Of a stretch of DNA of 64,000 bases, positions 35,406-57,513 are shown piece by piece. This stretch comes from Collinsella sp. An268 (lineage in GTDB: Bacteria > Actinomycetota > Coriobacteriia > Coriobacteriales > Coriobacteriaceae). Every line of letters begins with the position of its first letter. The stretch's first letter is position 1. A model generated the notes under the pieces. The model had not been told where the DNA came from. It ran no database searches and worked only from the letters and a program-made list of their open reading frames with translations. The position numbers and the translations under genes are program-made. The stretch spans positions 62,001 to 126,000 of the forward strand of contig NZ_NFJH01000002.1 of the NCBI RefSeq assembly GCF_002159765.1, read 5' to 3'.

Positions 35406-35732
35406 CGTCCACCGTACCTTGGTGTCGTGGGGCGGAAAAGGGGCGCACCGGGTGGGACGCGGCGGCCACGCCGCGGCACGCGCTGCGGTGCGGGCGCCCG
35501 CCGCGTTGCGGTGCCTGTTCCATGGTGCGCGCATCGGCGCGCCGGTGCCATCGAATTGCCTTACGGCACGGTGACACTTTGGTAAGGATGGTTATGAACG
35601 GCTTATGGCCGTCGCGTCACCTCCGCGTCTGCCTTACGACGAACGGTCGCAAGGCGAGTGGCAGGGCCGCGCGTTTTCGGGTGGGGAGAAGCGGCGGACG
35701 GCATATCGGGATTAGGCGAGGAGAAAAGAGAC

Positions 35733-35973
35733 GGATTGCATGTCCTCGCCGTGCGGGGAGAAAAGCCGCAGATTGTATGTTCAGGGACCTGGGGGAGATA
35801 TGCCGCAGATTGTATAGGCAGATTGTATAGCCCGAATTCTGAACGTCAAAATCCCAGCTCAGCGATGTGCAAAGATGGGGCGGATTGTATAGAAAGATAC
35901 AATCCGCCCCATCTTTTCCCGCCACAACATACAATCCGCCGCATCTTTCCCATTTCACCCGGGCATGCAATCC
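35733..35973. repeat. GATTGTAT repeat array, locus 2, with central 20-bp hairpin
   Basis: Five plus-strand cores of (G/A)GATTG(T/C)AT(GT/AG) start at 35733, 35770, 35807, 35820 and 35882 (steps 37, 37, 13, 62). Three inverted copies follow at 35897-35905, 35927-35937 and 35963-35973. A perfect 20-bp stem with a 6-base loop (35871-35890 / 35897-35916) sits at the turn. The 35406-36040 gap contains no gene. The unit also occurs at 18011-18070. Confidence 0.8.
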
Positions 35974-42031: not shown

Positions 42032-42931
42032 CTACATATGGTTGTTGCGCCAACACATATCATGAGGGTTCCACGTTGGGTGTTGATGGACGGGAAGGAG
42101 TGCGGGTGCGAAGAGCGTCCTCGCTAGCTGTTGGGCGCTAGATAAGTCAGGGGCCACTTGATCCAGCCTCGCTTGGTGCGCCAACCTTCTATAGGTCTGT
42201 TCATAGTTTTGGAACCAGAACTCCGGAATCGCAAATGTCTCCGGGAGTTTGATTTTTCGAGCAGCTGCCTCCTTCGCTACTTCGAATGCGAGCAACTCTC
42301 CGTCAACGGTGCATGTCTTTGCGAGGATGATGATGTCGACCAGGTCTTTAACGCGTGAAGAAGGCTTGTCGTTGTGAGTTTCGATGATGGCGAGAAACTT
42401 GTCTGCCAGCGCAGACTCGGCTCGGCAAACGGAATAGTCGAACACGGGGAGTCCCTCTACATCGAGCCTGTCAGCAGGGGTAATTCTTTCAGGTTTCAGA
42501 CCGGCAACCTCATCGATAACGAGGTCTATGGAGATTGGCTGGGCGGTTTTGCTTCCAAATAGCGGCGTGAACCATACTTTCATGCCGCAGCGATATTCAT
42601 CGTCAGACTTGATGGCTTCTACTCGGTCGAAATGAAAGGCGATAAAGTCTCCAAGGTCGAGGGAGGCGAGGCGCGTCAGTTCTTCAACGGCGGAAAGAAG
42701 GGTATCCTCTTGAGAAACAAGATCGATGTCTCGTGTGGCTCGTGCGTCAATGGTTCGCGCGAGCATGCTCATTCCTCCCTTCAAAACGAATGGCGAATCC
42801 TCGCTACTGAACACTCGACACAACAGCCGATGAAGGTAGAAAGCTGACATTGCTCGACCGGTGTCGAGCGGCGATGCCTTAGCAGCGGCTTTAACAGCCA
42901 TCTCCAAGGCGGCAGGGGTTCGGTATCTCAT
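42032..42931 (-). CDS. AbiEii-type nucleotidyltransferase toxin
   Basis: A 299-residue toxin of the type IV AbiE system. The nucleotidyltransferase signature appears as FVLKGGMSMLARTIDARATRDIDL near residues 40-62. The second acidic region is ISIDLVIDEVAG and the ADKFLAI lysine motif follows. Family members add nucleotides to tRNAs or otherwise block growth during phage infection. The start overlaps the antitoxin stop by ATGA. GC content and codon use are visibly lower than neighbouring genes, consistent with horizontal gain. Confidence 0.88.
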   Translation of the reverse strand: MRYRTPAALEMAVKAAAKASPLDTGRAMSAFYLHRLLCRVFSSEDSPFVLKGGMSMLARTIDARATRDIDLVSQEDTLLSAVEELTRLASLDLGDFIAFHFDRVEAIKSDDEYRCGMKVWFTPLFGSKTAQPISIDLVIDEVAGLKPERITPADRLDVEGLPVFDYSVCRAESALADKFLAIIETHNDKPSSRVKDLVDIIILAKTCTVDGELLAFEVAKEAAARKIKLPETFAIPEFWFQNYEQTYRRLAHQARLDQVAPDLSSAQQLARTLFAPALLPVHQHPTWNPHDMCWRNNHM

Positions 42932-43572
42932 GAGTTTCGCTCCTCTCGCGCAGCGAGGATGTGCTTCTTCAGCGGCATAAGCAGTCTCTTCTTTTGGGGA
43001 GTCTTCGCGATGCCCTGCACAAGGTCCTCGAGTCGGTGAAGGTCGAGCCCTCTGGCGGAGGCGTCGCGAAACGCATTGCCGATAAGGGAAGGGTCTTCGA
43101 AGTCGAGGCAAAGATCCACGAGGGTCCGTTCGGGTCGTGTGACGGGGAGCCCCAGCATCCACGAGACGTCTTGGCGGTCAATGGCCCGGATGCCGAAGCT
43201 TGTCGATATGAGCCGAGAGTTGATTCTTGCTGGCGAGAATATACGGTAGGGCGTGGAGAAAAAGTCTCCTATGCCTAGTAGGCAGGCGGCGGTGTGGCCG
43301 CCAATTGCGATGCCATCCCACGTGCGCTGTCGCTCCCAAGTAAACAGTGAAGGCTTAGTGAGCTTCCAGATGGCGGTCAGCTCATCGGTTTCAAGTGCCG
43401 GTGTTCCCGTGAGGCGGTAAGCACCATGGCAGATGCGCTCGGCCCTTCCAACGGCGCAGGCGTGGGCGAGGGCGTTGCGCGTGATGCCGAGCCGCGCCGC
43501 CTGTGCCGTGGTGAAGACGCCTTCTGATGCTGACAGCTCGTTCATAGAGGAAATGTGATTCGCATACATCAT
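42928..43572 (-). CDS. AbiEi-type antitoxin/repressor
   Basis: A 205-214 residue antitoxin. The N-terminal winged-helix (EGVFTTAQAARLGITRNALAHACAVGRAERICHGAYRL) binds DNA and represses the operon. The C-terminal AbiEi domain contains THP-like SFGIRAIDRQDVSWM and PVTRPERTLVDLCLDF. Start is ambiguous: ATG 43572 coincides with the predicted transcription start (leaderless), while ATG 43545 begins the homology but has no ribosome-binding site. It is placed between ruvB and the recombinase of the polysaccharide locus. Confidence 0.85.
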   Translation of the reverse strand: MMYANHISSMNELSASEGVFTTAQAARLGITRNALAHACAVGRAERICHGAYRLTGTPALETDELTAIWKLTKPSLFTWERQRTWDGIAIGGHTAACLLGIGDFFSTPYRIFSPARINSRLISTSFGIRAIDRQDVSWMLGLPVTRPERTLVDLCLDFEDPSLIGNAFRDASARGLDLHRLEDLVQGIAKTPQKKRLLMPLKKHILAAREERNS

Positions 43573-43610
43573 GTTGCAATTGTACAAAATAATCAAACGA
43601 TTGCAACATG
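43570..43610 (-). promoter_or_regulatory. abiE promoter and operator
   Basis: Perfect 11-bp inverted repeat CATGTTGCAAT (43570-43580) / ATTGCAACATG (43600-43610). On the minus strand TTGCAA and TACAAT with a 16-base spacer form a promoter lying inside the repeats, so AbiEi binding would block it. Confidence 0.75.
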
Positions 43611-43683
43611 AACATAGCCAGAAGCGAATCGACGGCAGCAACGGCGGCCTTTACGCATGCGATAGGAAACGGGGTGCGGCTCA

Positions 43684-44298
43684 ATGGCGGGGCGGGTGTT
43701 TGGATACGCGCGGGTGAGCACGCGCGAGCAGAATCTCAACAGACAGATCGATGCGCTCAACGCGTTTGGGGTGGACCGGATCTTCGCCGACCGCGCGAGC
43801 GGCCGCGACTTCGACCGGCCCGCCTGGCGCGAGCTCCTCTCCGCCATCGAGGGCGGCGACGTGCTCGTGGTCAAAAGCATCGATCGGCTCGGCAGGAGCT
43901 ATGAAGAGGTCATCGACATGTGGCGCACCATAACCAAGGAGCGGCGCGTGGCGGCGGTGGTGCTCGATATGCCGCTGCTCGACACACGGCAGGAGACCCA
44001 GGGCATAACCGGTACGCTCATCGCCGATATCGTGCTCGAGCTTCTTTCCTATGTGGCGCATGTCGAACGTGAGAATATCCGGCAGCGTCAGGCCGAGGGC
44101 ATCGCAGCGGCCCATCGCCGGGGCGTGCGCTTCGGCCGTCCGCGTAAGGAGCGCCCGGGTGCCTACGGGGAGATCGTAAATCTCTACGGGGCGGGCCAAC
44201 TATCCCGCAAAGAGGCCGCCTGCCTGCTCGATGTGAGTGTGAGCACGTTCGATAGGTGGCGCAAAGAGGATCTGCTGGCAGGGTTGACTGAACGGTAG
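43684..44298 (+). CDS. Serine recombinase (resolvase/DNA invertase family)
   Basis: A 204-residue small serine recombinase. The catalytic domain starts GYARVSTREQNLNRQIDAL, with nucleophile Ser12 and Arg in DRASGRDFDRP and SIDRLGRS. The long E helix follows (LELLSYVAHVERENIRQRQAEGIAAA) and the C-terminal helix-turn-helix is LSRKEAACLLDVSVSTFDRWRKED. Size and layout fit Hin/Pin-type invertases and resolvases. Thirty-six bases after its stop begins a 172-bp segment bounded by 19-bp perfect inverted repeats, the likely substrate. This suggests control of the downstream polysaccharide operon. Confidence 0.92.
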   Translation: MAGRVFGYARVSTREQNLNRQIDALNAFGVDRIFADRASGRDFDRPAWRELLSAIEGGDVLVVKSIDRLGRSYEEVIDMWRTITKERRVAAVVLDMPLLDTRQETQGITGTLIADIVLELLSYVAHVERENIRQRQAEGIAAAHRRGVRFGRPRKERPGAYGEIVNLYGAGQLSRKEAACLLDVSVSTFDRWRKEDLLAGLTER

Positions 44299-44334
44299 CC
44301 CGAGAAAACCGCTGGTGAGGGCGGAGTGACCTGC

Positions 44335-44506
44335 TGCAAAAGGTACAGGTTTTAACCCTCTAACTCCGGCCACCTACTATAAGGCACCCCTACGCCATAT
44401 TTTAAACAAATCGGGATTTTCATAAGGCTCTGACACTGCCTTTACCTAGCGCCGACCGGTTGTGACATCAAACGCGCCGGTCGTGTCAAAACCTGTACCT
44501 TTTGCA
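44335..44506. promoter_or_regulatory. Putative invertible segment with 19-bp inverted repeats
   Basis: TGCAAAAGGTACAGGTTTT (44335-44353) and its exact complement (44488-44506) bound 134 bases without a gene. The minus strand holds TATAGT (44381-44376), the -10 sequence used at ruvC, argH and padR, although no good -35 is present. As read, such a promoter would point away from the polysaccharide genes. An inner dyad CGACCGG...CCGGTCG lies at the right side. The adjacent recombinase makes site-specific inversion the leading reading. Confidence 0.65.
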
Positions 44507-44564
44507 CCCTTCCAGCCTACGGGGATGCAAGAGGAGCAGGTGACCGGGGAAGGAGGAAGCGTTC

Positions 44565-45146
44565 ATGGCCACATCGGTTTTGCAGCCGCGACACACCGCG
44601 CTTCGCCTGCCTCAAGGTCGTCGCGTGCCCCGCGGCAGCACCCGGTGGTATGCGCTTACCGTTCCCGAGGGGCGTGAGGAGAGCATCGCACGCGACTTGC
44701 GCAAGCTCGTACCCGCAGATCTTCTCCATGACGTCTTCGCTATCCGCAAGGAGTATTGGGTCAAGCGCGGAGGTGCATGGAGCCTCAACTCAAAGATTGC
44801 CTATGCCGGTTATCTCTTCGGGCAGACGGCTGATCCCGCTGGACTCCAGAAGGCGCTCGCGCAGCTCACGCTGCCGGTGGTGCTCGTCGGCGCGCACGGG
44901 CACGCATGGGCGCCGCTTGCGCCCGAGGCGGAGGCATGGCTCAAGCGCGCGCTCGATGTCGGGCACGTTCTCCGTTCGAGCACGGCTCTGGTGGAGGACG
45001 GCAAGCTCCGCATTGTCTCAGGTCCGCTCCGAGGCATGGAGGGGCGCCTGCGTGACGTAGACAGCCACCGACGGCGCTGCATGGTCGACATCGCCGATGC
45101 CGACGGCGGCTTCAGCGAGCTCATGCCGCTCGAGGTGCGCAAGTAG
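44565..45146 (+). CDS. Specialised NusG-like antiterminator, first copy
   Basis: A 193-residue NusG paralogue. The NGN domain begins at about residue 25 (RWYALTVPEGREESIARDLRKLV) and contains KIAYAGYLFG. The KOW domain is C-terminal (STALVEDGKLRIVSGPLRGMEGRLRDVD). NusG itself is encoded elsewhere in such genomes; paralogues at the head of polysaccharide operons (RfaH, LoaP, UpxY types) promote full-length transcription of the long operon. The ATG has AGGAGG eight bases upstream. It is the first gene after the putative invertible segment. Confidence 0.8.
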   Translation: MATSVLQPRHTALRLPQGRRVPRGSTRWYALTVPEGREESIARDLRKLVPADLLHDVFAIRKEYWVKRGGAWSLNSKIAYAGYLFGQTADPAGLQKALAQLTLPVVLVGAHGHAWAPLAPEAEAWLKRALDVGHVLRSSTALVEDGKLRIVSGPLRGMEGRLRDVDSHRRRCMVDIADADGGFSELMPLEVRK

Positions 45147-45151
45147 GCACG

Positions 45152-45367
45152 CAGTTGTTTGCGCGCGCCCCAGCGGCCGCATGGATGCCGGGGCGCGCGC
45201 AGCCAACTGGGATGCTGGGAAACCGGTGTCCGCTGCAGAACATACCTTTTCTCCGGATGGGTGGAGCCACGTTGCTGACCTGCTCGGGTTGGGGGAGTGC
45301 ATAGGCCGGGTGAGAACCTGCCCCATGGGCAGGATGGGCGAAGCCGTAGCCGCATCCCCCCAACCCG
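45152..45367 (+). ncRNA. Structured leader between the two NusG-like genes
   Basis: CAGTTG-TTT-GCGCGCGCCCC (45152-45171) pairs with GGGGCGCGCGC-AGC-CAACTG (45190-45209), giving a 17-bp helix with a 3x3 internal loop. A second long-range stem CGGGTTGGGGG (45285-45295) pairs with 45357-45367 and encloses a CCTGCCC/GGGCAGG hairpin. LoaP-type proteins are known to recognise leader helices, so this may be their target. No match to a riboswitch class is claimed. Confidence 0.45.
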
Positions 45368-45410
45368 GCCGTGCCACCCCCGACTCGTCATGCAGGAAGC
45401 GGTGGTAGCC

Positions 45411-45950
45411 GTGTGGTACGTCATCCAGGTCATGCACGGGCGCGAGGACGCCATGGCCCGTCTCATCGGGCGCGTCGTTCCCGCTGAGGTCATGGGGGAG
45501 TGCTTCAGCCCCACGTTCGAGACCGAGACCAAGGTCAAGGGCGAATGGGTGCGCGTAAAGCGCCAGATGCTCCCCGGATACCTCATCGCCGTCACCGACG
45601 AACCGCGCCGCCTGGCAGATGCGATCGCACCCCTTCCGGAGTTCTGCCGGGTGCTCATGCAGGGCGGTAGGTTCATCCCGCTGGGGCGGGATGAGGTGGA
45701 GCTCATCGACGGCTTCACGCGGACGGGGGCGCGCTGCGTGCCCATGTCCGTCGCCGTCAAGGAGGGCGACCGCGTGGTGGTGACCGAAGGGCCGCTCAAG
45801 GGCCATGAGGCGCTGATTGCCGAGGTCAATCGCCATAAGTCGCTCGCCTATCTGGAACTCGACATCTGCGGCCGTCGCGTGCGGACGCGCGTGGGGTTGG
45901 GTGTGTTGAGCGCCAAGCGCGCCGAGGAGCGTGCGGCGGAGTCTCGATAG
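45411..45950 (+). CDS. Specialised NusG-like antiterminator, LoaP type
   Basis: About 179 residues. The NGN domain begins WYVIQVMHGREDAMARLIGRVVP and contains KRQMLPGYLIA. A linker leads to the KOW domain (VKEGDRVVVTEGPLKGHEALIAEVNRHKSLAYLELDICGRR). WYVIQV and GYL are typical of LoaP/UpxY proteins. I prefer GTG 45411 with GGTGG five bases upstream; ATG 45390 is possible. It lies 33 bases before the initiating transferase gene. Two paralogues in tandem are unusual. Confidence 0.82.
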   Translation: MWYVIQVMHGREDAMARLIGRVVPAEVMGECFSPTFETETKVKGEWVRVKRQMLPGYLIAVTDEPRRLADAIAPLPEFCRVLMQGGRFIPLGRDEVELIDGFTRTGARCVPMSVAVKEGDRVVVTEGPLKGHEALIAEVNRHKSLAYLELDICGRRVRTRVGLGVLSAKRAEERAAESR

Positions 45951-45983
45951 CGTAATGCTTGTACGATTCAAAGGATGGGATAC

Positions 45984-48023
45984 ATGCTTGGGGGAAGAAG
46001 CTCCTCATCCGCCGGGGAGGTTGTAATCGATACCGGAGGCCTGCAGGATACGCCAAGCGAGACGCCCGGGATCGTTGATGAGCCCGATGATGGGCGAGAG
46101 GCGTATGCGGACCTTCGCGAGGCCGAGGAAGCGGCGGACAACGATTGCCGGCTTGCCCAGAAATCGTTCCTGCTCTTCAAACGAAGCTCGGATATCGTGC
46201 TCGCTTCGGCGGGGCTTGCGGTGCTTTCGCCGGTGCTGCTCGCCACGGCAATTGCTGTCAAGGTAACGAGTCCTGGGCCCATTATCTTCAAGCAGTTGCG
46301 CTTCGGTAAGAACAAAAGGCCATTTGTTTGCTACAAGTTCAGATCAATGCGTACAGAGGCGCCGGACAACCTGCCCACAGCGCTTATGAACGAGGACAAG
46401 AACTGCCTGACGCCCATCGGGGCGTTCATACGCAAGACATCACTTGATGAGTTGCCGCAGCTAGTGAACATCATTAAAGGAGACATGTCCGTTATCGGTC
46501 CGCGTCCCATGATATTGAGCGAGTATCGGCAAATCGAGATGCGTGACGCCTACGGGGCGAATGATATCCAGCCCGGTCTTACTGGCTTGGCGCAGGTCAA
46601 CGGACGAGATTTTGTAACGCCCGGGCTCAAGGCACGGATGGATGGTGTGTATCGCCATAACCTGAGTGCCCATCTGGATGCGGTGTGCTTTATAAAGAGC
46701 ATCGAGGTCGTATTGTCGCGGCAGGGTAATGCTGCCGACAGCGGCGTTGGTAAGTCAGTTAAAAAGACGGAACCCGCACCGCTCACGCTCCCCAAGAAGC
46801 GCACGAAGATCTTGGTGGTCAGTCAGCACTACTGGCCCGAGCCCTTCAATTTCGCCGAAATATGCGAGGAGCTTGTTCAGCGCGGGTACGACGTCACGGT
46901 GCTCACGGGCCTGCCCAACTACCCCGAAGGGGCGATCTATCCGGGATACGAAGGCGGAAAGAACCGGTATCAGGTACGTAACGGCGTGCGCATCATCCGC
47001 TCTCCTTTGATACCGCGTGGCACATCGACGGTACAGCGCGTGGTGAACTATTTCAGCTTTAGTCATGAGGCGACCAAGATGACGGCGGGCTTGGAGTCCG
47101 ACTTCGATGTCGTGCTTGCGTTCCAGACCTCTCCCGTCATGATGGCGGAGCCCGCTCTCGCCTATGCCAAGCGTACGGGCGTGCCGGTGTTGCTGTGGTG
47201 CATCGATATCTGGCCGGAATGCCTGACGGCGGGCGGTATCCCCGCGGGAAGCGCGCCCTACAACCTATTCAAGTTGATTTCTAAACGGATTTATCGCTCG
47301 GCGGATAGGCTGGCGGTCACATCCCCTCTGTTCAAAGAGTACTTGCACGACATGTTTGGAATGAACACGTCTGAGCTGATTGATTTACCGCAGTATGCGG
47401 AGGATCTCTTCACCGACGAGGCGGAGGATATTCCCGAGGGGTATGACCGAACGAAGATTAACCTCACCTTTGCGGGAAATATCGGTTCGGCGCAGTCTGT
47501 CGAGACGATTATCGAGGCAGCGCGCCTCGTGAAGGAGGAGGAGCGCCTGCTGTTCCATGTCGTGGGTTCGGGATCATCCGAGCAGACATGCAGGGATTTG
47601 GCAAAACAATATGGCCTGAACAACGTGGTGTTCCATGGGCGACATCCTCTGGAGGAGATGCCCGCGTACTACCAGGCGTCTGATGCGATGCTGGCGACCT
47701 TTGCAGATAACCCCGTACTGGGGTATACACTGCCGCGCAAGATCCAATCGTATCTTGCCGCCGGCAAGCCCATCATCGGGACGGTGACCGGTGAAGCGGC
47801 ACGCGTCATTAACGAGGCGCCTTGTGGCTTGGCATCGGCGCCGGAAGATCCCGTTGGGCTCGCCGCCAATTGCCTGGTGTTCGCTGAACAGCCTGACAGT
47901 ATTCGGGTGGCCCTCGGCAGACGCGGCAAAGCGTATTACGAGAAACACTTCACCAAGCAGGCATTCTACAGCCGGCTTGAGAAAGAACTGAATGATTTGA
48001 AGGGAAAGAAACATGGCGCATGA
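45984..48023 (+). CDS. Fused phosphoglycosyltransferase and glycosyltransferase (WcaJ-like/WbuB-like)
   Basis: A 679-residue bifunctional enzyme. Residues about 55-260 are a small bacterial sugar transferase (PF02397 type): membrane-entry helix SDIVLASAGLAVLSPVLL, then KQLRFGKNKRPFVCYKFRSM, RKTSLDELPQLVNIIKGDMSVIGPRP and GLTGLAQVNGR. It transfers a sugar phosphate to undecaprenyl phosphate. Residues about 270-675 are a GT-B family 4 glycosyltransferase resembling WbuB (L-FucNAc transferases), with LVVSQHYWPEPFNFAEICEEL and the C-terminal E-x7-E-like region GYTLPRKIQSYLAAGKPIIG. ATG 45984 fits the AAAGGATGG site better than 45975. The fusion lets one protein add the first two sugars; the specificity is inferred from neighbouring capEFG. 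Confidence 0.85.
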   Translation: MLGGRSSSSAGEVVIDTGGLQDTPSETPGIVDEPDDGREAYADLREAEEAADNDCRLAQKSFLLFKRSSDIVLASAGLAVLSPVLLATAIAVKVTSPGPIIFKQLRFGKNKRPFVCYKFRSMRTEAPDNLPTALMNEDKNCLTPIGAFIRKTSLDELPQLVNIIKGDMSVIGPRPMILSEYRQIEMRDAYGANDIQPGLTGLAQVNGRDFVTPGLKARMDGVYRHNLSAHLDAVCFIKSIEVVLSRQGNAADSGVGKSVKKTEPAPLTLPKKRTKILVVSQHYWPEPFNFAEICEELVQRGYDVTVLTGLPNYPEGAIYPGYEGGKNRYQVRNGVRIIRSPLIPRGTSTVQRVVNYFSFSHEATKMTAGLESDFDVVLAFQTSPVMMAEPALAYAKRTGVPVLLWCIDIWPECLTAGGIPAGSAPYNLFKLISKRIYRSADRLAVTSPLFKEYLHDMFGMNTSELIDLPQYAEDLFTDEAEDIPEGYDRTKINLTFAGNIGSAQSVETIIEAARLVKEEERLLFHVVGSGSSEQTCRDLAKQYGLNNVVFHGRHPLEEMPAYYQASDAMLATFADNPVLGYTLPRKIQSYLAAGKPIIGTVTGEAARVINEAPCGLASAPEDPVGLAANCLVFAEQPDSIRVALGRRGKAYYEKHFTKQAFYSRLEKELNDLKGKKHGA

Positions 48024-49068
48024 GGCGTTCGGCGGCAAGACGCTGATGATCACGGGGGGCACGGGGAGCTTCGGCAACACCGTGCTCAAGCACTTCCTGG
48101 AGAGCGACGTCGGGGAGATCAGGATCTTCAGCCGCGACGAGAAGAAGCAGGACGACATGCGGCACGCGCTGCAGGCGCGGCACCCGGGGCACGCCTCCAA
48201 GGTCCGCTTCCTCATCGGCGACGTGCGCGACGCGCGGTCCGTGCGAGACGCCATGCGCGGGGTCGACTACGTCTTCCACGCGGCGGCGCTCAAGCAGGTG
48301 CCCTCCTGCGAGTTCTTCCCCATGGAGGCGGTCCGCACCAACGTGATCGGCACCGACAACGTGCTCCACGCCGCGATCGACGAGGGCGTGGACAGGGTCG
48401 TGTGCCTCTCCACGGACAAGGCGGCCTACCCCATCAACGCCATGGGCAAGTCGAAGGCCATGATGGAGTCGGTCATCTACGCCAACGCCCGCAACGGCGC
48501 CGGCAGGACCACCATCTGCTGCACGCGCTACGGCAACGTCATGTGCTCCCGCGGCAGCGTGATCCCGCTCTTCATCGACCAGATCCGCGCCGGGCGCCCC
48601 GTGACGGTCACCGACCCCTCCATGACGCGCTTCCTCATGAACCTCGACGAGGCGGTGGACCTCGTGGAGTTCGCCTTCCTGCACGCCGAGCCGGGCGACC
48701 TCTTCATCCAGAAGGCGCCCGCCTCCACCATCGGCGACCTCGCCGAGGCGGTGCAGGAGCTCTTCGGCAGGACCGGCACCCGGGTCATCGGCACCCGCCA
48801 CGGGGAGAAGCTCTACGAGACCCTCATGACCCGCGAGGAGCGCCTGCGCGCCGAGGACATGGGGGAGTACTACCGCGTCTCGTGCGACTCCCGCGACCTC
48901 AACTACGACCGGTTCGTGGTCGAGGGCAGGGTAGAGACCCAGGCGGACGAGCCCTACACGAGCCACAACACGCGGCGGCTCGACGTCGCCGGGACGGTGG
49001 AGAAGATCAAGACCGCCGAGTACGTGAGGCTCGCCCTCGAGGGCCGCGAGCACGAGGCGGTGCAGTAG
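48013..49068 (+). CDS. capE: UDP-GlcNAc 4,6-dehydratase/5-epimerase (CapE/FnlA)
   Basis: First enzyme of UDP-N-acetyl-L-fucosamine synthesis. The 351-residue extended SDR protein has the nucleotide motif TGGTGSFGNTVLKHFL, FHAAALKQVPSCEFFPMEAVRTNVIGT, the catalytic region STDKAAYPINAMGKSKAMME with the MxxxK motif, and a long C-terminal extension. It overlaps the upstream fusion gene by 11 bases and shares its stop base with capF. Codon use is much more GC-rich than the cassette that follows. Confidence 0.92.
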   Translation: MAHEAFGGKTLMITGGTGSFGNTVLKHFLESDVGEIRIFSRDEKKQDDMRHALQARHPGHASKVRFLIGDVRDARSVRDAMRGVDYVFHAAALKQVPSCEFFPMEAVRTNVIGTDNVLHAAIDEGVDRVVCLSTDKAAYPINAMGKSKAMMESVIYANARNGAGRTTICCTRYGNVMCSRGSVIPLFIDQIRAGRPVTVTDPSMTRFLMNLDEAVDLVEFAFLHAEPGDLFIQKAPASTIGDLAEAVQELFGRTGTRVIGTRHGEKLYETLMTREERLRAEDMGEYYRVSCDSRDLNYDRFVVEGRVETQADEPYTSHNTRRLDVAGTVEKIKTAEYVRLALEGREHEAVQ

Positions 49069-50291
49069 TGAAAGTTCTGGTTACGGGAGCCAAGGGCTTC
49101 GTGGGCCGCAACCTCTGCGAGTCGCTGAAGAGCGTCCGCGACGGGAAGGACAGGCGGGAGAGGTATAGGCCTCTCCTGCCCCTGACCGTCTGGGAGTGCG
49201 ACGTCGAGACCCCGCGCGAAGAGCTCGACGCCTGGTGCGCGGGGGCCGACTTCGTCTTCAACCTCGCCGGCGTGAACCGCCCCGAGGACCCCGCCGACTT
49301 CATGGCCGGCAACTTCGGGTTCGCCTCGGAGCTGCTGGGGCTCCTCGAGCGCCATGGCAACCGCTGCCCCGTCATGCTCGCGAGCTCGGCGCAGGCCTCC
49401 CTCGTCGGCCGCTACGCGGGCTCCGCCTACGGCGAGTCCAAGCGCGCGGGCGAGGAGCTGTTTTTCGATTACGGCAAGCGCACCGGCGCCCCCGTCCTCG
49501 TCTACCGCTTCCCGAACCTCTACGGCAAGTGGTGCCGCCCCAGGTACAACTCCGCGGTCACGACGTTCTGCGACGCCATCGCCAACGGCCGCCCCTACAC
49601 CGTCAGCGACCCCTCGGTCGAGCTGGAGCTCCTCCACATCGACGACCTGGTGGGGGAGATGCTCTCCGCCCTGCTGGGGGAGGAGCACCGCTGCGGCTAC
49701 GACGGCCTCGAGCCCGTCCCCGACCCGGGGGGGCGCTACTGCCACGTCCCGGCGACGGACCGGGCGACCCTCGGCGAGATCGTCTCCCTGCTCGAGTCCT
49801 TCAGGAGGAGCCGCGGGGACCTGTCCGTGCCCGACCTCACCGAGGGGTCGCTCTCCAAGAAGCTCTGGTCGACCTTCGAGAGCTACTACGGCGCCGGCTC
49901 CCTCGCGTACCCGCTGCGCGCGAACCGCGACGGCCGCGGCTCCTTCACTGAGTTCCTGCGCACCCCGGACCGCGGGCAGGTGTCCGTGAACGTCTCCAAG
50001 CCCGGCGTCACGAAGGGCAACCACTGGCACCACAGCAAGTGGGAGCGCTTCCTCGTCGTCTCCGGCGAGGCGCTCATCCGCCTGCGCCGCGTCGGCGTCG
50101 ACGCGGAGGGGAGCCCGTACCCGGTGGAGGAGTACCGCGTCTCCGGCGCGGAGCCCACCGTGGTCGAGATGGCGCCCGGCATGACACATTCAATAACGAA
50201 CCTCTCGGACACGGACGACCTCGTCACCGTCATGTGGGCCAGCGAGCCCTTCGACCCCGAGAGGCCCGACACGTATTTCGAGGAAGTGTAG
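49068..50291 (+). CDS. capF: UDP-6-deoxy-hexosamine reductase/epimerase with cupin domain (CapF/FnlB)
   Basis: Second enzyme of the UDP-L-FucNAc pathway. The 407-residue protein has an N-terminal SDR domain (VLVTGAKGFVGRNL, SSAQAS, Y-K pair in YGESKRAGE) and a C-terminal cupin domain (about 285-400) with VSKPGVTKGNHWHHSKWERFLVVSGEA, the metal site. The GTG start overlaps the capE stop (TAGTG). A G7 run at 49727-49733 is in frame. The next gene starts with GTG two bases after the stop, where base composition falls sharply. Confidence 0.92.
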   Translation: MKVLVTGAKGFVGRNLCESLKSVRDGKDRRERYRPLLPLTVWECDVETPREELDAWCAGADFVFNLAGVNRPEDPADFMAGNFGFASELLGLLERHGNRCPVMLASSAQASLVGRYAGSAYGESKRAGEELFFDYGKRTGAPVLVYRFPNLYGKWCRPRYNSAVTTFCDAIANGRPYTVSDPSVELELLHIDDLVGEMLSALLGEEHRCGYDGLEPVPDPGGRYCHVPATDRATLGEIVSLLESFRRSRGDLSVPDLTEGSLSKKLWSTFESYYGAGSLAYPLRANRDGRGSFTEFLRTPDRGQVSVNVSKPGVTKGNHWHHSKWERFLVVSGEALIRLRRVGVDAEGSPYPVEEYRVSGAEPTVVEMAPGMTHSITNLSDTDDLVTVMWASEPFDPERPDTYFEEV

Positions 50292-50292
50292 C

Positions 50293-51408
50293 GTGACGGT
50301 ATACGCACACATCAATACCGTGCCTAATGGTTCCACGGGTGGGATTATGATAAAGGAGCATAGTGAGCTCCTTTCGCACGGGAAGGATTCGTATGCCTTT
50401 TGGGGTCGAGGCCGCGAGGCTCAAAACGACCATGAGATGAAGTTCGCTACAAAGCCCGAAGTCTATCTTGATGCCCTGCAAACTCGTTTGGACGGTCGTG
50501 CAGGATTTCATTCGAAGACGGCTACGAAGCGTTTGCTAAGGCGCCTGGATGAAATAAAGCCAGATGTCGTTCACTTGCATAATCTGCACGGGTACTACAT
50601 CAATATCGAAATGCTGTTCAATTGGCTGGCTGCACAGAATTGCAAGGTCGAATGGACCTTGCATGATTGCTGGGCATTTACAGGCCATTGCGCGTATTTC
50701 ACATATGTGAAGTGTGCGCAATGGCAATCTCATTGCGCGTACTCAGATAAATGCCCTCAGCTCAATACCTATCCCAAGACGATTTGTAAAAAAGCCTGCG
50801 CGCGGAACTTCGATGAAAAGCGTCGTCTCTTTGCAAGCATTTTACCTGAGAGGATGAAACTCATCACTCCCTCTCAGTGGCTTGAGGGGTTGGTCAAGCG
50901 GAGTTTCCTCGGGACTTATCCCATCGAGGTTCGTCACAACACCATCGATACAACCGTTTTCAAGCCAACTCCAAGCGACTTTCGCGCGCGCTACGGTATC
51001 GGTGATCGTTTCATGATTCTTGGCGTCGCCAGCCCGTGGACCGAGCGGAAAGGACTGTCAGATTTCATTCGCCTGGCAGGAGAGTTCGGCAACGAGGGGT
51101 TTGCGTTCGTCCTCGTTGGGCTAGACAAGAAGCAGTTTCGGTGGTTGCCGAGGGGCATTATCGGCATCCCCCGCACTGATTCTCCGCGGGAGCTTGCGGG
51201 AATATATTCTACGACTGACGTGTTGTTCAACCCGACGCATGAGGACAATTTCCCCACGGTAAATCTAGAGGCCGAAGCTTGTGGCACATCTGTTGTGACG
51301 TATGACGCGGGAGGTTGTAGCGAAACGCTATTGTCGGCGACATCCTGCTCGGTTGCTGGTTACGAGCAGGCAAAGATTGCGATCATGCGACTATCTGGAA
51401 GGAATTAA
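50293..51408 (+). CDS. Glycosyltransferase family 4
   Basis: A 371-residue GT-B enzyme that adds a sugar to the repeat unit. N-terminal AHINTVPNGSTGGIMIKEHSELL and DVVHLHNLHGYYINIEML are typical of WcaC-like transferases. A Cys-rich central insert follows (HDCWAFTGHCAYF...CPQL...CKKAC). The C-terminal donor site includes GVASPWTERKGLSDF and NPTHEDNFPTVNLEAEACG. It begins with GTG two bases after capF and opens the AT-rich cassette. Donor and acceptor unknown. Confidence 0.88.
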   Translation: MTVYAHINTVPNGSTGGIMIKEHSELLSHGKDSYAFWGRGREAQNDHEMKFATKPEVYLDALQTRLDGRAGFHSKTATKRLLRRLDEIKPDVVHLHNLHGYYINIEMLFNWLAAQNCKVEWTLHDCWAFTGHCAYFTYVKCAQWQSHCAYSDKCPQLNTYPKTICKKACARNFDEKRRLFASILPERMKLITPSQWLEGLVKRSFLGTYPIEVRHNTIDTTVFKPTPSDFRARYGIGDRFMILGVASPWTERKGLSDFIRLAGEFGNEGFAFVLVGLDKKQFRWLPRGIIGIPRTDSPRELAGIYSTTDVLFNPTHEDNFPTVNLEAEACGTSVVTYDAGGCSETLLSATSCSVAGYEQAKIAIMRLSGRN

Positions 51409-52329
51409 TTGAAAGCGATAGTGGAAAGCGTTGCTTGGGATAACGCGAAATCGAGCGGCGCTAACATTGGGGCAAAAGGATCGAGGGCATACTTTGAATC
51501 TGCAGCGGTTTCGCTTTGGTCTGTTAAGAGAACAAATCCTGATTGGGAAGCTCTATTAGTAACGAACACTGAAGTCCCTAGCGATGTGCGCGACATTCTA
51601 GATGGTTTTGGGGCGATAGTCATTCACCAACCGTTTGAAAAGTTTTCATTTCCATTTGACGTGCCTTGGCATCTTGCATACTACAAGCTATGCGCTGTCG
51701 ACTCTGTGCTTTCCTCTGAATCATACCAATACGTTTGTATGCTTGATACAGATACTTGGGTTAGGGGTTCTCTCGAAGAACTATATGCTTCTTCGAGGGG
51801 GGGGGTATCGATGATTGATCTGCATGCGCCTTTAGCCGACAGAGATCGAAGGGCGATGGAGACAGATCTCAAGCACATCGGTATTGAAAAACCGGAATGT
51901 TTCTTGCCCTTCTATGGCGGCGAGCTTCTGTGTGGCGGTGTGTCTGAGCTTCGCTTGGTTTTGGATGCGTGCTCATACGTTCACAGAAAAATGGTTTCTC
52001 ACGGGTACGTTTCCAAACGAGGTGATGAATTTCTGCTGTATGCATCCACGGCTCTTGGATCTTTGCCAACTGTAGTGTCGGCGAACGGGTACGCCACGCG
52101 CTGCTGGACGGGTCGCTACTATTCCGTTCCTAGATGGGAAGACTTAGCCATACTCCATTTACCTGCTGAGAAAGTTTACAGCTTTCCTCGTGCTTTTAAG
52201 AAACTAAATCACATGGGTCAGATTGATCCGGCATGGTTCGAACGGTCGTGTGGCTTAAGGCAGTCAAGGCGTCCAGTTTCCCCTCTGTGGATGGCTAAGA
52301 GATCGCTTGATAAGGTGTTGAAGCGATGA
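51409..52329 (+). CDS. Glycosyltransferase, GT-A type with DxD motif and poly-G tract
   Basis: A 306-residue enzyme. VCMLDTDTWVRGSLEEL at about residues 110-125 contains the metal-binding DTD motif of a nucleotide-sugar-diphosphate GT-A fold, of the GT8/GT32-like kind. The start is TTG directly after the preceding TAA, with GGAAGGA upstream. An uninterrupted run of nine G (51797-51805) encodes RGGV just after the DxD motif. In this AT-rich gene such a run is striking. The frame is open at present, so the gene is in the ON state if phase-variable. Confidence 0.8.
   Translation: MKAIVESVAWDNAKSSGANIGAKGSRAYFESAAVSLWSVKRTNPDWEALLVTNTEVPSDVRDILDGFGAIVIHQPFEKFSFPFDVPWHLAYYKLCAVDSVLSSESYQYVCMLDTDTWVRGSLEELYASSRGGVSMIDLHAPLADRDRRAMETDLKHIGIEKPECFLPFYGGELLCGGVSELRLVLDACSYVHRKMVSHGYVSKRGDEFLLYASTALGSLPTVVSANGYATRCWTGRYYSVPRWEDLAILHLPAEKVYSFPRAFKKLNHMGQIDPAWFERSCGLRQSRRPVSPLWMAKRSLDKVLKR
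51797..51805 (+). repeat. Poly-G tract (G9) in glycosyltransferase gene
   Basis: Nine consecutive G residues in frame. Gain or loss of a single G would truncate the enzyme soon after its DxD motif. Confidence 0.95.
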
Positions 52330-53462
52330 GGCTCACCTTTTTTTCAAATTACTTCAATGCGCATCAACTGCCCTTGGCGCTTGAGTTTTGTGCCATGGAG
52401 GGGGTCGATTATACCTTTGTATCCCTTATGCACACGGAAGGTGCCGTGGGACGGGACTCTCTCGACGCGATTTATCCCTTCGTATTGCGTGAGTATGAGG
52501 GGACTGATCAAGCTGATGAAGCCATGAGGCGCGCTATTGAGGATGATGTTGTCGTTTTTGGCGACATGGCCGGTAAAGAACAGTACGTTCGAGCTAGGGC
52601 GAAGACGGGCAAGATGTTCTTTCGCTATGCCGAGCGTCTTCTCAAGCGCGGTGACTGGTGGCGCTTTGTGCCTCCTAAACGTTATAGAACGTGGGATCGA
52701 TTCGGACGATATAAAAACTCAAACATGCATGTTCTCTGCGCAAGCGCATATACGGCTCGCGACCTCTCCATGTTCGGCTTTCCCCGGAGCAAGTGTCTAA
52801 AATGGGGGTACTTTCCACAGGTTGCGACAAACGATGCACAATATGCTCTTCTGAGTTCACAGAAAAGTCGATGTGCGAACACCGTCTGTAGCGTACAGCG
52901 GCTTATTCCATTAAAGCGCGTCGATATGCAACTCCAAGCACTCGGTCTCCTCAAACAGGAAGGGTTTGACTTACATCTTCGTATAGCGGGAGATGGTCCT
53001 GAGAGGCATCGTCTTGAGTGCCTCGCTATAGATTTGGGAATATCTGATCGCGTTCATTTTTTGGGAGAGCGTTCTCATGAGGAGGCCCTTTTGCTCATGA
53101 GCGACAGTTCCATTTTTCTTGCCACCAGCAACCGAAGCGAAGGATGGGGGGCAACGATTAATGAAGCCATGGCAATGGGGTGCTGTGTTATCGCAAGCAG
53201 CGAAATGGGCAGTGTTCCGTTTCTGATTCGTGACGGAGTTAATGGCTTATCCTTTGACGGTGGCTGCGAGTCCCTGACATCGAAGCTGAGGTTTGTTGCT
53301 ACTCATCTTGATGATCTTCGTTTGATGGGGAAAAATGCAGTCGAAACAGTTAGCACGGATTGGAGTGCGGCATCTGCGGCGGTAAATCTTGTGCGCGTAG
53401 CCAAGGCGCAGATGGATCGCAGGAGTTTCTTGCCGGAAAAAGGCCCATTGAGCCGGGCCTAA
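52326..53462 (+). CDS. Glycosyltransferase family 4
   Basis: A 378-residue GT-B enzyme. N-terminal LTFFSNYFNAHQLPLALEF and central CSVQRLIPLKRVDMQLQALGLLKQEGFDLHLRIAGDGPERHRLE lead to the donor-binding ATSNRSEGWGATINEAMAMGC (E-x7-E motif). It overlaps the preceding gene by ATGA, showing coupling. The sugar is unknown. Base composition matches the AT-rich cassette. Confidence 0.9.
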   Translation: MRLTFFSNYFNAHQLPLALEFCAMEGVDYTFVSLMHTEGAVGRDSLDAIYPFVLREYEGTDQADEAMRRAIEDDVVVFGDMAGKEQYVRARAKTGKMFFRYAERLLKRGDWWRFVPPKRYRTWDRFGRYKNSNMHVLCASAYTARDLSMFGFPRSKCLKWGYFPQVATNDAQYALLSSQKSRCANTVCSVQRLIPLKRVDMQLQALGLLKQEGFDLHLRIAGDGPERHRLECLAIDLGISDRVHFLGERSHEEALLLMSDSSIFLATSNRSEGWGATINEAMAMGCCVIASSEMGSVPFLIRDGVNGLSFDGGCESLTSKLRFVATHLDDLRLMGKNAVETVSTDWSAASAAVNLVRVAKAQMDRRSFLPEKGPLSRA

Positions 53463-53486
53463 AGTTGTCCGTGGAAAGATGCGAAT

Positions 53487-54740
53487 ATGAATAGTGAGCA
53501 TTCGAATCGTGATGGGCAAGCAGCAAGTTTTTACTCGCGCATTGGTGGTCTTCTGGCTGCTGCTGCAATTGTGGTTACGGTAGCGTCACAGTTTGCTGGT
53601 CGAGATTTACTCGTGATTTATGGCCCGCTTTGGATTTCTATTGCCGCGTTAAACTTCCACAGTCGAGGCTCGTGTACCGTTTTGAGCCCTTTTTCTTTGT
53701 TTTTTCTTCTGTCTTATGCCTCATTAGCTTCTGTTTGCTCTGTCATGTTTTTCGTGACAGGAGAAGCTGGCTACATCACTAATCTCTTTATATGTATTAC
53801 TAAAGTCTTTCTGATGTATCTTGTTGGCATGGCGCTCTCGTCATCTATGGTGAACGAAAAGCATCTTTGTCACCTTGCGTATATTTACATAGCTGCTAGT
53901 GTTGCGTATGCACTTTGGGTTCATTTGAACTATATACCGGGCTTGAGCTCTTGGTTATCTAATGAGGTTTATCTATTTGGACAGAAGAACAGCTTTGGTC
54001 AAATAATATCTGTTGCGATAATCTTGTGCGCTGTAATTCCGAAGGCGACGGCTAAAGGACGTTTTCTGGCAGCTTCATCAGCTATCTACATGTTTGCTAT
54101 ACTTGTCGCCGCTCAGTGCAGAAGCTCAATGATTGCTTGTGCTATTGCACTTATTGCTTGGCTCCTAATTGATAGGAAATACAAGCTGCTTTTCGCAGCG
54201 TTATCTCTTTGCGTTGCTGGATTAGTTTTTAGCCCGCGAATCCAGTCGGTTGTGGCTCATGCATTTCTTTTGGATAAATATGCTGGCGCGGGATTGAGCG
54301 CTATTTCCAGCGGAAGAACAGGTTACTGGGCTGACGCTTTGAAATCTATTTCCATGCATCCTTTTTTTGGGGTGGGGGACTACTATGTCGATAACTTTTA
54401 TTTAAATACCTTCGCGAATCTTGGCGTAATGGTGGGCGGTCTCGTCGTCATGCTGATATTAGTCCGATTTCTAATCAACTTCTCATCTTTGGTAAAAAAA
54501 CGACATGGCCAACGTGGCGCTACGACCCATGCGGCGAACGCAGAATATATTGAATGCATTTTAGGATGTGTGCTTTCAGTATTCTATCTTGTTGTGTCCT
54601 TGTTTGAGGCGCTTCCTCCCATTGGTCCAGGTGTTTGTAGCTTTGTGTTCTGGATTGCATGTGGCTATTTAGATGAAAAAACCGCCGCGCCTCTTGGTTC
54701 AACTCATCATTCTAAAACGGGGGAGATCTTCAGTCGATGA
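53487..54740 (+). CDS. wzy: Polysaccharide polymerase (Wzy-like)
   Basis: A 417-residue membrane protein with roughly ten transmembrane helices. A large external loop holds the O-antigen polymerase-type segment SSGRTGYWADALKSISMHPFFGVGDYYVDNFYLNTFANLGV. It would join repeat units on the outer side of the membrane. Homopolymers T7 (54362-54368) and A7 (54494-54500) occur but are expected in AT-rich sequence. It overlaps the next gene by ATGA. As usual for Wzy, identification rests on topology, loop motif and context. Confidence 0.82.
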   Translation: MNSEHSNRDGQAASFYSRIGGLLAAAAIVVTVASQFAGRDLLVIYGPLWISIAALNFHSRGSCTVLSPFSLFFLLSYASLASVCSVMFFVTGEAGYITNLFICITKVFLMYLVGMALSSSMVNEKHLCHLAYIYIAASVAYALWVHLNYIPGLSSWLSNEVYLFGQKNSFGQIISVAIILCAVIPKATAKGRFLAASSAIYMFAILVAAQCRSSMIACAIALIAWLLIDRKYKLLFAALSLCVAGLVFSPRIQSVVAHAFLLDKYAGAGLSAISSGRTGYWADALKSISMHPFFGVGDYYVDNFYLNTFANLGVMVGGLVVMLILVRFLINFSSLVKKRHGQRGATTHAANAEYIECILGCVLSVFYLVVSLFEALPPIGPGVCSFVFWIACGYLDEKTAAPLGSTHHSKTGEIFSR

Positions 54741-55996
54741 AAGTCTTGGTCGCTCATTCGGGATGGCAGCATTCTGCCCATCTTGCTAGTGCCTTAGAAA
54801 AGGCTGGGATGCTGGACTCATACATCACGACAGTGTACGATACTCCCAAGTCTGCCTTAGTGAATTATCTTAAAAAGGTGCCATCCTCTTCATTTAGGCA
54901 AGGCATAGCAACAAGACACTTAGATGATCTTGATCAGAATAAGATTACCTGTTTATGCACATTGTCTGGTCTTCTTAGCATCGTGTTGAGTAGACTGGGC
55001 TGGCGCCGCCTTTACGAACTTAACGAATTGCAACTAAATTACCGCTTTGGGAAAAAGGTCGCGAAGCTTGCTGCTCGAAAGCATGCCGATGCCATAATAA
55101 TGTATGAAGGCAAGGCAGCGGGAGCTTTCAAATGGCTGAAAGGCCATGTCCCCGGCACATTACGTATCATTGATTCTGCTTCCGCTTGCTCTATCTTTGT
55201 TGGAAGGAAAATGGCGGACGAGTATAAGTCCGTTAATTCTGAAGAGCCGTTTTTTGCCCCATTACTTCTTGAGGGCAGGGATGCAGATTATGTAACCAAA
55301 GAAATTGATCTTGCCGATAGATATCTGGTGGCGTCTAGCTATGTCAAGCGTAGCTTCGTGGAAAGCGGTCTTGCTCCGGAAAAGGTGATGGTTTGCGCTA
55401 ATGGTGGCAATTTCCCCATTAAAGGCGAACCAAAATCTAAGCCAGAGGCTAGACCTCTTCGTTTTGTCTACTGTGGCAGGTGTACACCACAAAAAGGCGT
55501 GCACCATCTTCTGGAAGCGTTCAAAGGGCGCCAAGAATCTCTGAGACTTGTTGGAGTTTACGACCGTTGCGATTCATACTTAGAGCGCTGGGCTAAGGAG
55601 CCCAACATCGAGTTTACGGGCAAGATTACCCATCATCAGGTGATCAATCAGCTTGACTGGGCTGATGTGTTTATTTTCCCCTCATTATCCGATGGCTTTT
55701 CGTTTGCCTGTGCGGAAGCCCTTTGCAGAGGGCTTCCTCTTGTTTGCACGGATTGCACGGGGATCAGTGATTTCATCAGCGAGGGGGTCAACGGTTTCGT
55801 TATTCCGGCAGGCAGATCTTCTGCGCTGGCAGATGCTGTCAATTGGTTTTCCGAAAATCCTGAGCGTATTCCAGTCATGAGCGCCGCTGCGCTCGAAACA
55901 GCCGGGAAGCTTACGTGGGAGCGCTATGACAAAGAAATTAGCGATTTATTCTACGGCATTCTTGTCACAAAAGAGAAGGGGGGTGCGTTGACATAG
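54737..55996 (+). CDS. Glycosyltransferase family 4
   Basis: A 419-residue GT-B enzyme. VLVAHSGWQHSAHLASALEKAG is the N-terminal fold. FVYCGRCTPQKGVHHLLEAF and FPSLSDGFSFACAEALCRGLPLVCTDCTG form the donor-binding half with the E-x7-E motif. It ends in a G6 run (55978-55983) shortly before its TAG. It overlaps wzy by four bases, and the wzx frame begins right after it. Confidence 0.9.
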   Translation: MKVLVAHSGWQHSAHLASALEKAGMLDSYITTVYDTPKSALVNYLKKVPSSSFRQGIATRHLDDLDQNKITCLCTLSGLLSIVLSRLGWRRLYELNELQLNYRFGKKVAKLAARKHADAIIMYEGKAAGAFKWLKGHVPGTLRIIDSASACSIFVGRKMADEYKSVNSEEPFFAPLLLEGRDADYVTKEIDLADRYLVASSYVKRSFVESGLAPEKVMVCANGGNFPIKGEPKSKPEARPLRFVYCGRCTPQKGVHHLLEAFKGRQESLRLVGVYDRCDSYLERWAKEPNIEFTGKITHHQVINQLDWADVFIFPSLSDGFSFACAEALCRGLPLVCTDCTGISDFISEGVNGFVIPAGRSSALADAVNWFSENPERIPVMSAAALETAGKLTWERYDKEISDLFYGILVTKEKGGALT

Positions 55997-56022
55997 ACGC
56001 ATCTAGCCAGCGTAAGCTGGGA

Positions 56023-57513
56023 GTGGTTTTGGGGTATGTTAACACAGTCGTGCAAACGCTTGTGTCATTCATATACACCCCGTTGTTATTGTCTGGAATC
56101 GGGCAGTCTCAATATGGTCTTTATCAAATAATCGGCTCGCTTACCGCCTACATCAATATCCTTGAGTCGATGCTTACAACATCAGTTTTGCGGTTTTACT
56201 GTCAAGCCAAGGCTGATCATAACGAAGAGAAAATGGAGAATGTTCTGGCGATAGCGCGATTCGTATACCGCGTCGCCTCTGGCTTAGTCGCCGTTCTTTC
56301 CGTTGTGTTTGCCTTCTTTTTCACGGGCGCTTACTCTAAGAGCATGTCCACGGATGAACTTCGTGAGGGCATTGTGATGCTTTTTGTGGTCTGTACGAAC
56401 ATAGTCCTGAACATGTCTTTCTTTACGTACTCTACCGTAGTCCTTGCACATGAGAGATTTGTATTCATCAAGGTGCTTGAGTTAGTTGGCCTTGTGCTGC
56501 AGCCGCTTGTCGTCCTTGCTCTCATTCGAGTCTTTCCGCAAGCGCTGGTCATAAGCCTTGTGCAGCTTGCTGTGTCTTTTATTAGCTGTGTTCTTAAGCG
56601 TTTTTATGCGGTTCGTGAGCTTGGCTGCAAAATTGTTGCTCACGATATCAGCTTGAAGACGGTTATGCCAATCGTTGGTTTTTCTGGCATCATGCTCGTC
56701 TCAATGGTGGCAGACATTGTTTTTGCGAAAACGGGTCAGATGATTGTCGGCTACGTTATTGGCACTGCTGCTGTTGCCGTTTACTCTGTTGGATATCAAG
56801 TTTACCAGGCTTATGGCGTTCTTGGCAGGATGGTCTCAAGCGTTTTCGTTCCGCGTGTGACGGAGATTACTAAAAACCCCAATTCTTCGAGAGAGTTGTC
56901 GATTCTCTGGAACAAAACTGGCAGGCTATCAATGTTAATCATTGCCGGGATACTTGCGGGTTTTGCTCTATACGGTCAAGAATTTATCAGTATATGGGTG
57001 GGGGATGGCTACGACCAGGCCTTTATAGTGGCTCTACTGATGATGATTGCGTTTGTTCCCGATATCGTTCAGGCTCTTGGGCTTACTATTCTTCAGGTCA
57101 TCAATCGCTATAACTTCCGCGCCTCAGTTTATGTGGTATGCGCCTTAGCGAATGTTACACTCTCCTTCCCACTTGTTTCTAAACTTGGCGTGCCGGGTGG
57201 TGCGCTCGCCGGCCTTATTGTTTTGCTTGCCGGGAGCGGTCTCGTGATGAACGTGTATTACGGTCGCGTAATTGGTCTTGATGTATTCGGATTTTGGCGC
57301 GCTGTTCTTGGCTCGCTAAGGGGGGTGCCCATAGCAGTGTTGGTTGGCATGGCGATCGCTCGCGTACAGCTACCGTCTGCTGCGTTGTCGCTTGTGATTC
57401 ATTGTTTTGTTTTTGCGGTCGCATACGTATTGGTAACCTACTTCGTCTCAATGAACTCATACGAAAAAGAGCTTGTCGGAGGGCTGCTCTCGAGGCATGG
57501 GAGGATGCGTTAA
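56023..57513 (+). CDS. wzx: Polysaccharide flippase (Wzx-like)
   Basis: About 496 residues with 12-14 transmembrane helices of the MATE/PST flippase superfamily. GYVNTVVQTLVSFIYTPLLLSGIGQSQYGLYQIIGSL is the typical N-terminus. It would move lipid-linked repeat units across the membrane for Wzy. The first canonical start is GTG 56023, but the frame continues upstream as DIDASSQRKLG, which resembles the normal Wzx N-terminus, and the only good ribosome-binding site (AAGGGGGG) is at 55976-55983. No ATG/GTG/TTG in this frame lies next to it. The true start may be a rare codon (GTT 55987 or ATA 55993), or the frame may have shifted. Confidence 0.88.
   Translation: MVLGYVNTVVQTLVSFIYTPLLLSGIGQSQYGLYQIIGSLTAYINILESMLTTSVLRFYCQAKADHNEEKMENVLAIARFVYRVASGLVAVLSVVFAFFFTGAYSKSMSTDELREGIVMLFVVCTNIVLNMSFFTYSTVVLAHERFVFIKVLELVGLVLQPLVVLALIRVFPQALVISLVQLAVSFISCVLKRFYAVRELGCKIVAHDISLKTVMPIVGFSGIMLVSMVADIVFAKTGQMIVGYVIGTAAVAVYSVGYQVYQAYGVLGRMVSSVFVPRVTEITKNPNSSRELSILWNKTGRLSMLIIAGILAGFALYGQEFISIWVGDGYDQAFIVALLMMIAFVPDIVQALGLTILQVINRYNFRASVYVVCALANVTLSFPLVSKLGVPGGALAGLIVLLAGSGLVMNVYYGRVIGLDVFGFWRAVLGSLRGVPIAVLVGMAIARVQLPSAALSLVIHCFVFAVAYVLVTYFVSMNSYEKELVGGLLSRHGRMR

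Follow-up and report, generated by a model that had tools for sequence, protein, structure and literature searches.

A probable promoter-inversion switch upstream of a loaP-headed polysaccharide operon in Coriobacteriaceae

Genes and sites at the head of the polysaccharide locus

The window is a stretch of 64,000 nucleotides from contig NZ_NFJH01000002.1 of Collinsella sp. An268. It contains a serine recombinase gene, a pair of inverted repeats, two NusG-like genes and a polysaccharide operon in direct succession (Table 1).

Table 1. Features of the putative switch and the adjoining operon (positions in the window)
Feature	Position	Strand	Description
Serine recombinase, 204 aa	43684–44298	+	Resolvase domain and C-terminal HTH; R10, S12, R68 and R71 present
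Left recombination site (putative)	44335–44356	+	TGCAAAAGGT-AC-AGGTTTTAAC; 10+2+10 dyad around a non-palindromic AC; exact repetition over the first 19 bp
Invertible segment (putative), 134 bp	44354–44487		Opposite orientation in Candidatus Coprousia avicola (L007)
Predicted promoter core, TTAAAA-N18-TATAGT	44376–44405	-	Faces the recombinase gene in the window (OFF)
Right recombination site (putative), inverted	44485–44506	-	TGCAAAAGGT-AC-AGGTTTTGAC on the minus strand
loaP1, first NusG-like gene	44565–45146	+	LoaP-type antiterminator; NF033641 E 6.4e-23, below the model cut-off
Structured leader between the loaP genes	45147–45389	+	Predicted RNA fold of -132 kcal/mol, z -4.5
loaP2, second NusG-like gene with KOW domain	45390–45950	+	Pfam NusG and KOW; NF033641 E 5.5e-35
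Polysaccharide operon, presumed under the switch	45975–57513	+	Sugar-phosphate transferase fused to glycosyltransferase, Polysacc_synt_2, epimerase, glycosyltransferases, Wzy-like, Wzx-like
UDP-GlcNAc 2-epimerase	58772–59941	+	Probable last gene of the polysaccharide cluster; PF02350 E 7.8e-75

The sequence TGCAAAAGGTACAGGTTTT (44335–44353, plus strand) starts 36 bases past the stop codon of the recombinase gene. Its exact reverse complement occupies 44488–44506 and 134 bases separate both copies. The chance expectation of a 19-bp inverted repeat in the window is 0 (100 shuffles). No substantial open reading frame is present between the repeats, which thus bound a non-coding segment, followed by the two NusG-family genes and the polysaccharide operon. 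This layout had been described in the initial annotation and is confirmed to the base. With one mismatch the repeat arms extend to 22 nt, giving the 22-bp dyad TGCAAAAGGT-AC-AGGTTTTRAC, whose two central bases are not palindromic. Small serine recombinases cut around a central dinucleotide, and the asymmetry of this core makes inverted sites invert.

A search for the 19-mer elsewhere, as the initial annotation had suggested, returned the switch locus and no other copy in the 2.37-Mb genome. The same annotation had noted a resemblance of the repeat to part of a dispersed element. This reading was dropped, since relaxed forms of the 19-mer are likewise unique in the window and the genome.

A look-alike of the repeat, AAAAGGGACAGGTTTA, sits in a hairpin that is present in roughly 10 to 25 copies in Collinsella genomes (G060, G061, G063, G072 and G076, e.g. 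at L181, L188 and L191). Part of the hairpin, AACCTGCCAAAA-AGGGACAGGTTTA-TTTTGGCAGGTT, matches the recombination site in 14 of 16 positions, and ATCTGGGCAAACG is common to the hairpin and the invertible segment. One Collinsella copy lies ~35 bp upstream of the recombinase gene.

The promoter core listed in Table 1 is the sole promoter-like match between 44250 and 44650 (shuffle mean 0.1). Its -10 hexamer points away from the operon, in agreement with the earlier guess that the assembled state is OFF. The counterpart in Candidatus Coprousia avicola (locus L007) reads TTAAAA-N17-TATAAT and points to loaP1 and the operon (ON). Thus, as far as the sequence can tell, the segment holds a promoter that faces the operon in one of its orientations. 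In all 28 loci compared, a -10-like hexamer ends 20–22 bp from the proximal site, pointing toward loaP1 in 14 loci and away in the other 14. An exact TATAAT is found within 18–24 bp of the site in 25 of the 28 loci, versus 0.55% of shuffles. The -35 element is weak in the window and unrecognisable in Collinsella. Its lack had been noted from the window and is real; the comparison adds that the -10 keeps a set distance to the site in all relatives.

A segment that inverts but acts otherwise, for instance by antisense control of the recombinase or by relocating a regulator site, would be consistent with the missing strong -35 and with the OFF-state promoter facing the 3' end of the recombinase gene. 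The constant position of the -10 in the 28 loci, on the other hand, argues for a promoter, as does the identity of the downstream gene, which is loaP1, a surface gene or a defence gene and hence belongs to the usual phase-variable set. A function other than that of a promoter is therefore regarded as quite unlikely.

LoaP is an antiterminator that promotes read-through of its linked operon via a leader RNA. LoaP is the best model for the products of both loaP1 and loaP2, which are LoaP-like by sequence, with scores (81.7 and 120.9 bits, respectively) below the NCBIfam cut-off of 125 bits. As in UpxY/Mpi-type loci, a NusG-family antiterminator is the first gene of the putatively switched polysaccharide operon. 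The leader between the two genes is 98% identical in L007 and has no clear relatives elsewhere in the family beyond the window species and L007. It has no Rfam match above the gathering score, the weak matches found being chance-like. Judged from its predicted fold, it may be the target of LoaP antitermination.

An AbiEi/AbiEii toxin-antitoxin pair (42032–43641) lies between ruvB and the recombinase gene. The pair is missing in L007, where ruvB and the recombinase gene are ~240 bp apart, and was accordingly either inserted or lost. At 35718–35945, several copies of GCAGATTGTAT and GCGGATTGTAT in both directions are found within 230 bp, partly with a spacing of 37 bp. Their arrangement resembles clustered binding boxes of a regulator or of the replication type.

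Orientation of the segment among relatives

When 60 relatives were searched at the DNA level, the region was recovered from a single genome (G006), as three pieces of alternating strand; the wider comparison was therefore made by way of the recombinase and LoaP proteins. The match is locus L007 (DVMF01000093.1) of Candidatus Coprousia avicola, the nearest relative (~95% identical DNA, recombinase 98% identical). Both flanks are collinear with the window at ~95% identity and the two 19-bp sites are intact. The inner segment aligns, with 125 identities, only when it is reverse-complemented (alignment score of 221, against 4 in the same orientation).

Using the first NusG-like gene as query, 37 loaP1-type loci across the order were found and examined. 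An inverted pair of sites with the same AC core is present upstream of loaP1 in 33 of them, and in none of eight loaP2-type loci. The four remaining loaP1 loci deviate in two ways. L029 and L135 each combine a site with an AT core and a site with an AC core; this mismatch should block recombination, and the two loci are possibly locked switches. The promoter faces loaP1 at L029 and faces away at L135. L161 (C. aerofaciens, G033) and L164 (G035) have lost the left site; unrelated DNA takes its place and that of part of the segment, and the promoter is directed toward loaP1. These two loci are possibly natural locked-ON alleles.

Seventeen alignable Collinsella loci have sites of identical type; 11 are ON and 6 are OFF, with collinear flanks. 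On a DNA tree of loaP1, in which most branches are weakly supported, orientation requires six changes, the maximum for six minority rows (bootstraps 5–6). Orientation thus carries no phylogenetic signal among these loci, and the near neighbours L142 and L155 as well as L143 and L158 are opposite in orientation. In a third lineage, L205 carries the segment the other way round from L066, L068 and L206. Both orientations with collinear flanks are therefore found between species, one genome per species being compared. The orientation in related genomes was a check that the initial annotation had proposed for its reading of an invertible promoter. That reading is supported by the inversion in L007, with unchanged flanks, and by inverted copies in two further lineages. 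According to these alignments, the segment inverts at the site boundaries across relatives, and the position of the promoter and the linkage to loaP1 are conserved.

Mis-assembly could flip a segment in a single draft genome and is implausible for a 14 to 14 split in 28 loci. A contig of another genome (L051, G016:C131) ends inside the site-like sequence CAAAAGGTAGAC directly after a recombinase gene of the family, which is expected where an assembler meets mixed orientations.

The comparison of one assembly per species would also fit rare inversions that were fixed in each species, with the sites being relics and no switch in current use. The four loci with mismatched cores or a lost site point in the same direction. 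This explanation is very unlikely: the Collinsella orientations show no clustering on the tree and near neighbours are in opposite states. Furthermore, the sites in the window are exact to 19 bp despite diverged flanks and the position of the -10 is invariant.

The recombinase family and its targets

The recombinase matches Pfam PF00239 (E 4e-32) and HTH_28, and its catalytic domain is intact. It has the Resolvase domain, the catalytic serine and arginines (read from the sequence) and the C-terminal HTH of small serine recombinases. Its best solved relatives are Tn552 bin3/Sin (E 1e-27), followed by gamma-delta resolvase and a DNA-invertase, which places it by sequence in the Sin/Tn552-like family of serine recombinases.

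This similarity to the Tn552/Sin and gamma-delta resolvases, together with relatives in phage and plasmid records, might suggest a transposon resolvase with transposon ends or res sites and no part in capsule control. There is no transposase beside the recombinase gene, however, and the repeats are unique in the genome and bracket the promoter rather than the recombinase gene. The inversion of the segment already contradicts a transposon origin, and this layout recurs ahead of loaP1 throughout the order. The probability of such an origin is considered negligible.

Members of the family are present in 44 of 67 Coriobacteriaceae genomes. The gene adjoins the switch in Coprousia and at the loci L029, L066, L068, L097 and L203–L207. 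The Collinsella loaP1 loci have no recombinase gene within the stretch examined; the only widespread Collinsella family member lies elsewhere (e.g. 87.6 kb versus 1,719.7 kb on contig C1 of G076). The earlier description of a recombinase beside the repeats thus applies to the window, Coprousia and the other loci named, and fails for Collinsella, which keeps the sites and the loaP-type gene with the recombinase at a distance. Collinsella orthologues without adjoining sites were initially taken for counter-examples; they were dropped as such once sites turned up at the distant loaP1 loci. Counted by genome, 23 have both recombinase and loaP1, 6 the recombinase only, none loaP1 only and 16 neither. 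Hence loaP1 accompanies the family in 23 of 29 genomes and occurs in none of the 16 that lack the family, a pattern that shared ancestry could also give. The data suggest that the unlinked Collinsella recombinase acts in trans. Although L068 and L205 lie in genomes of different families, their recombinases are nearly identical, suggesting horizontal transfer.

A site model, AAAAGGT-A[CG]-ACCTTTT, was derived from the sites in recombinase loci, with shuffles and upstream regions as controls. Some of the loci scored also supplied sites to the model; the pairs at L028, L031, L033, L034, L099 and L009 and those at the later loaP1 loci played no part in its construction. Inverted pairs with equal cores, ~104–150 bp apart, are found just downstream of roughly twenty recombinase genes of the family. 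Such pairs are absent from the upstream control regions, and 1260 shuffles give 0 at the 99th percentile. The core, AC or AG, tracks the recombinase tree (2 changes versus a shuffled mean of ~10), and the Collinsella recombinases group with the AC-core members.

Three kinds of target are found next to these sites. loaP-headed polysaccharide operons are present in the window and at L007, L029, L066, L068 and L097. Very large exported proteins are encoded at L031, L034, L095, L099–L104 and L108, several of them with repeat-rich or LPxTG-like ends (read from the sequence). At L030 the target is a DNA-methyltransferase/helicase operon (product likewise read from the sequence). In this locus (G008:C26:5000–20000) a family recombinase gene is followed by 13-bp inverted repeats, GTAGACGTTTCTG, 86 bp apart, and then by the operon, possibly a phase-variable defence system. 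At L032 the inverted repeat that precedes the recombinase gene was set aside, as it is a different one (TCGCGCCAATGTAAGGATGGAAT), also present in L031.

The genome of the window carries another family member at L028 (G000:C26:104000–112335). This recombinase gene (7291–7914) is located ~420 bp before the contig end, and its product is 53% identical to the first one. It is followed by AG-core inverted sites 139 bp apart and by the start of an exported surface protein, which is repeat-rich in the G006 homologue (L033). By its arrangement, L028 is a second switch in this genome; its orientation is the same in both species.

With this second member on contig C26, and with Collinsella sites in both orientations that have no neighbouring recombinase, it could be argued that another recombinase of the same genome inverts the segment in trans, and not the product of the adjacent gene. 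Against this, the second copy adjoins AG-core sites of its own before the surface-protein gene, and the core type tracks the recombinase lineage. Action of another recombinase on the window sites is thus unlikely, and the adjacent gene is preferred as the source of the enzyme.

Taken further, the family may provide a modular set of promoter switches throughout the Coriobacteriia, spread in part by horizontal transfer. In such a set the several switches of a cell would be kept independent by the 2-bp core, which is AC at capsule/loaP loci and AG mainly at genes for large surface proteins and at a restriction-modification operon. The window's genome has one of each, and the Collinsella capsule recombinase, now unlinked, would act in trans. 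The chances that this generalization is correct are rated about even.

Proposed mechanism and comparison with known switches

The locus in the window is very probably a phase-variable ON/OFF promoter switch for the capsule/exopolysaccharide operon of a Coriobacteriaceae gut bacterium. Judging from the orientations seen among relatives, it is almost certain that these bacteria turn capsule production on and off by DNA inversion. In the proposed mechanism the adjacent serine recombinase would bind the two inverted 22-bp sites and cleave at the central AC dinucleotide, whereupon the 134-bp segment (plus half-sites) with its promoter would be inverted. In the ON orientation, transcription from the promoter would enter loaP1, loaP2 and the polysaccharide operon. 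With the segment as assembled, the promoter would read back over the recombinase gene's 3' end, leaving the operon off. The LoaP antiterminators would let RNA polymerase traverse the long operon, so that one flip gates the whole cluster. Cutting by the adjacent recombinase, control of loaP1 and operon transcription by the orientation, and the passage of polymerase with the aid of LoaP are inferred steps.

The proposed switch works like the UpxY capsule switch of Bacteroides, but with other components. In Bacteroides, the occurrence of invertible promoters ahead of capsule operons that begin with upxY is well established (PMC8748976, PMC11892184, PMC10939037), and invertons in general have been reported in Actinomycetota (PMC11892184). 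In the capsule loci of Bacteroides fragilis (upxY/upxZ, Mpi), short inverted repeats likewise flank a promoter, and the gene directly downstream, the first of the polysaccharide operon, encodes a NusG-family antiterminator. Mpi is, moreover, a serine recombinase able to act on distant loci. The differences are that the host described here is an actinomycetote, that the sites are others and that the recombinase gene is often found beside the switch. Both NusG-like proteins score as LoaP-like and fail the UpxY model NF033644 (23.5 and 41.5 bits, cut-off 100), and the window recombinase reaches 37.7 bits with the Mpi model NF009949 (cut-off 272 bits).

Hin, Gin and Cin are also serine recombinases that act on a pair of inverted dyad sites, each centred on a 2-bp core, and the ON/OFF promoter logic is that of Hin. 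Hin-type DNA invertases require Fis and an enhancer. The window recombinase differs from them in being nearest to the Sin/Tn552 resolvases and in being encoded outside the inverted segment. Sin and BinL (Tn552) are its closest solved relatives in the catalytic domain; unlike the present arrangement with a single simple inverted site on each side, they resolve direct repeats with accessory sites.

In Eggerthella lenta, a related gut actinomycetote, megabase inversions involve capsule loci with loaP and are linked to capsule expression (PMC13174815, preprint 2026). These inversions take place at GATAAGCGCGGTTATG with no recombinase nearby, whereas here a 134-bp promoter segment with its own recombinase is concerned. 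The cps1 inverton of Akkermansia muciniphila also sets the capsule ON or OFF (PMC13343947). It belongs to a different phylum, and the text of that paper names neither a NusG-type gene nor a recombinase. No published account of the loaP-linked switch, its sites or its recombinase family was found in the open-access main texts searched.

Capsule switching by promoter inversion was worked out in Bacteroides. The same logic of an invertible promoter, a NusG-type antiterminator and a capsule operon most likely recurs throughout a whole order of Actinomycetota from the gut, with many Collinsella species among them. The recombinase, the sites and the antiterminator family are different. With the site, the promoter and the recombinase named, the capsule state should be readable from existing sequencing reads. 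It could then be tested against phage resistance, colonisation and the disease associations of Collinsella and its relatives.
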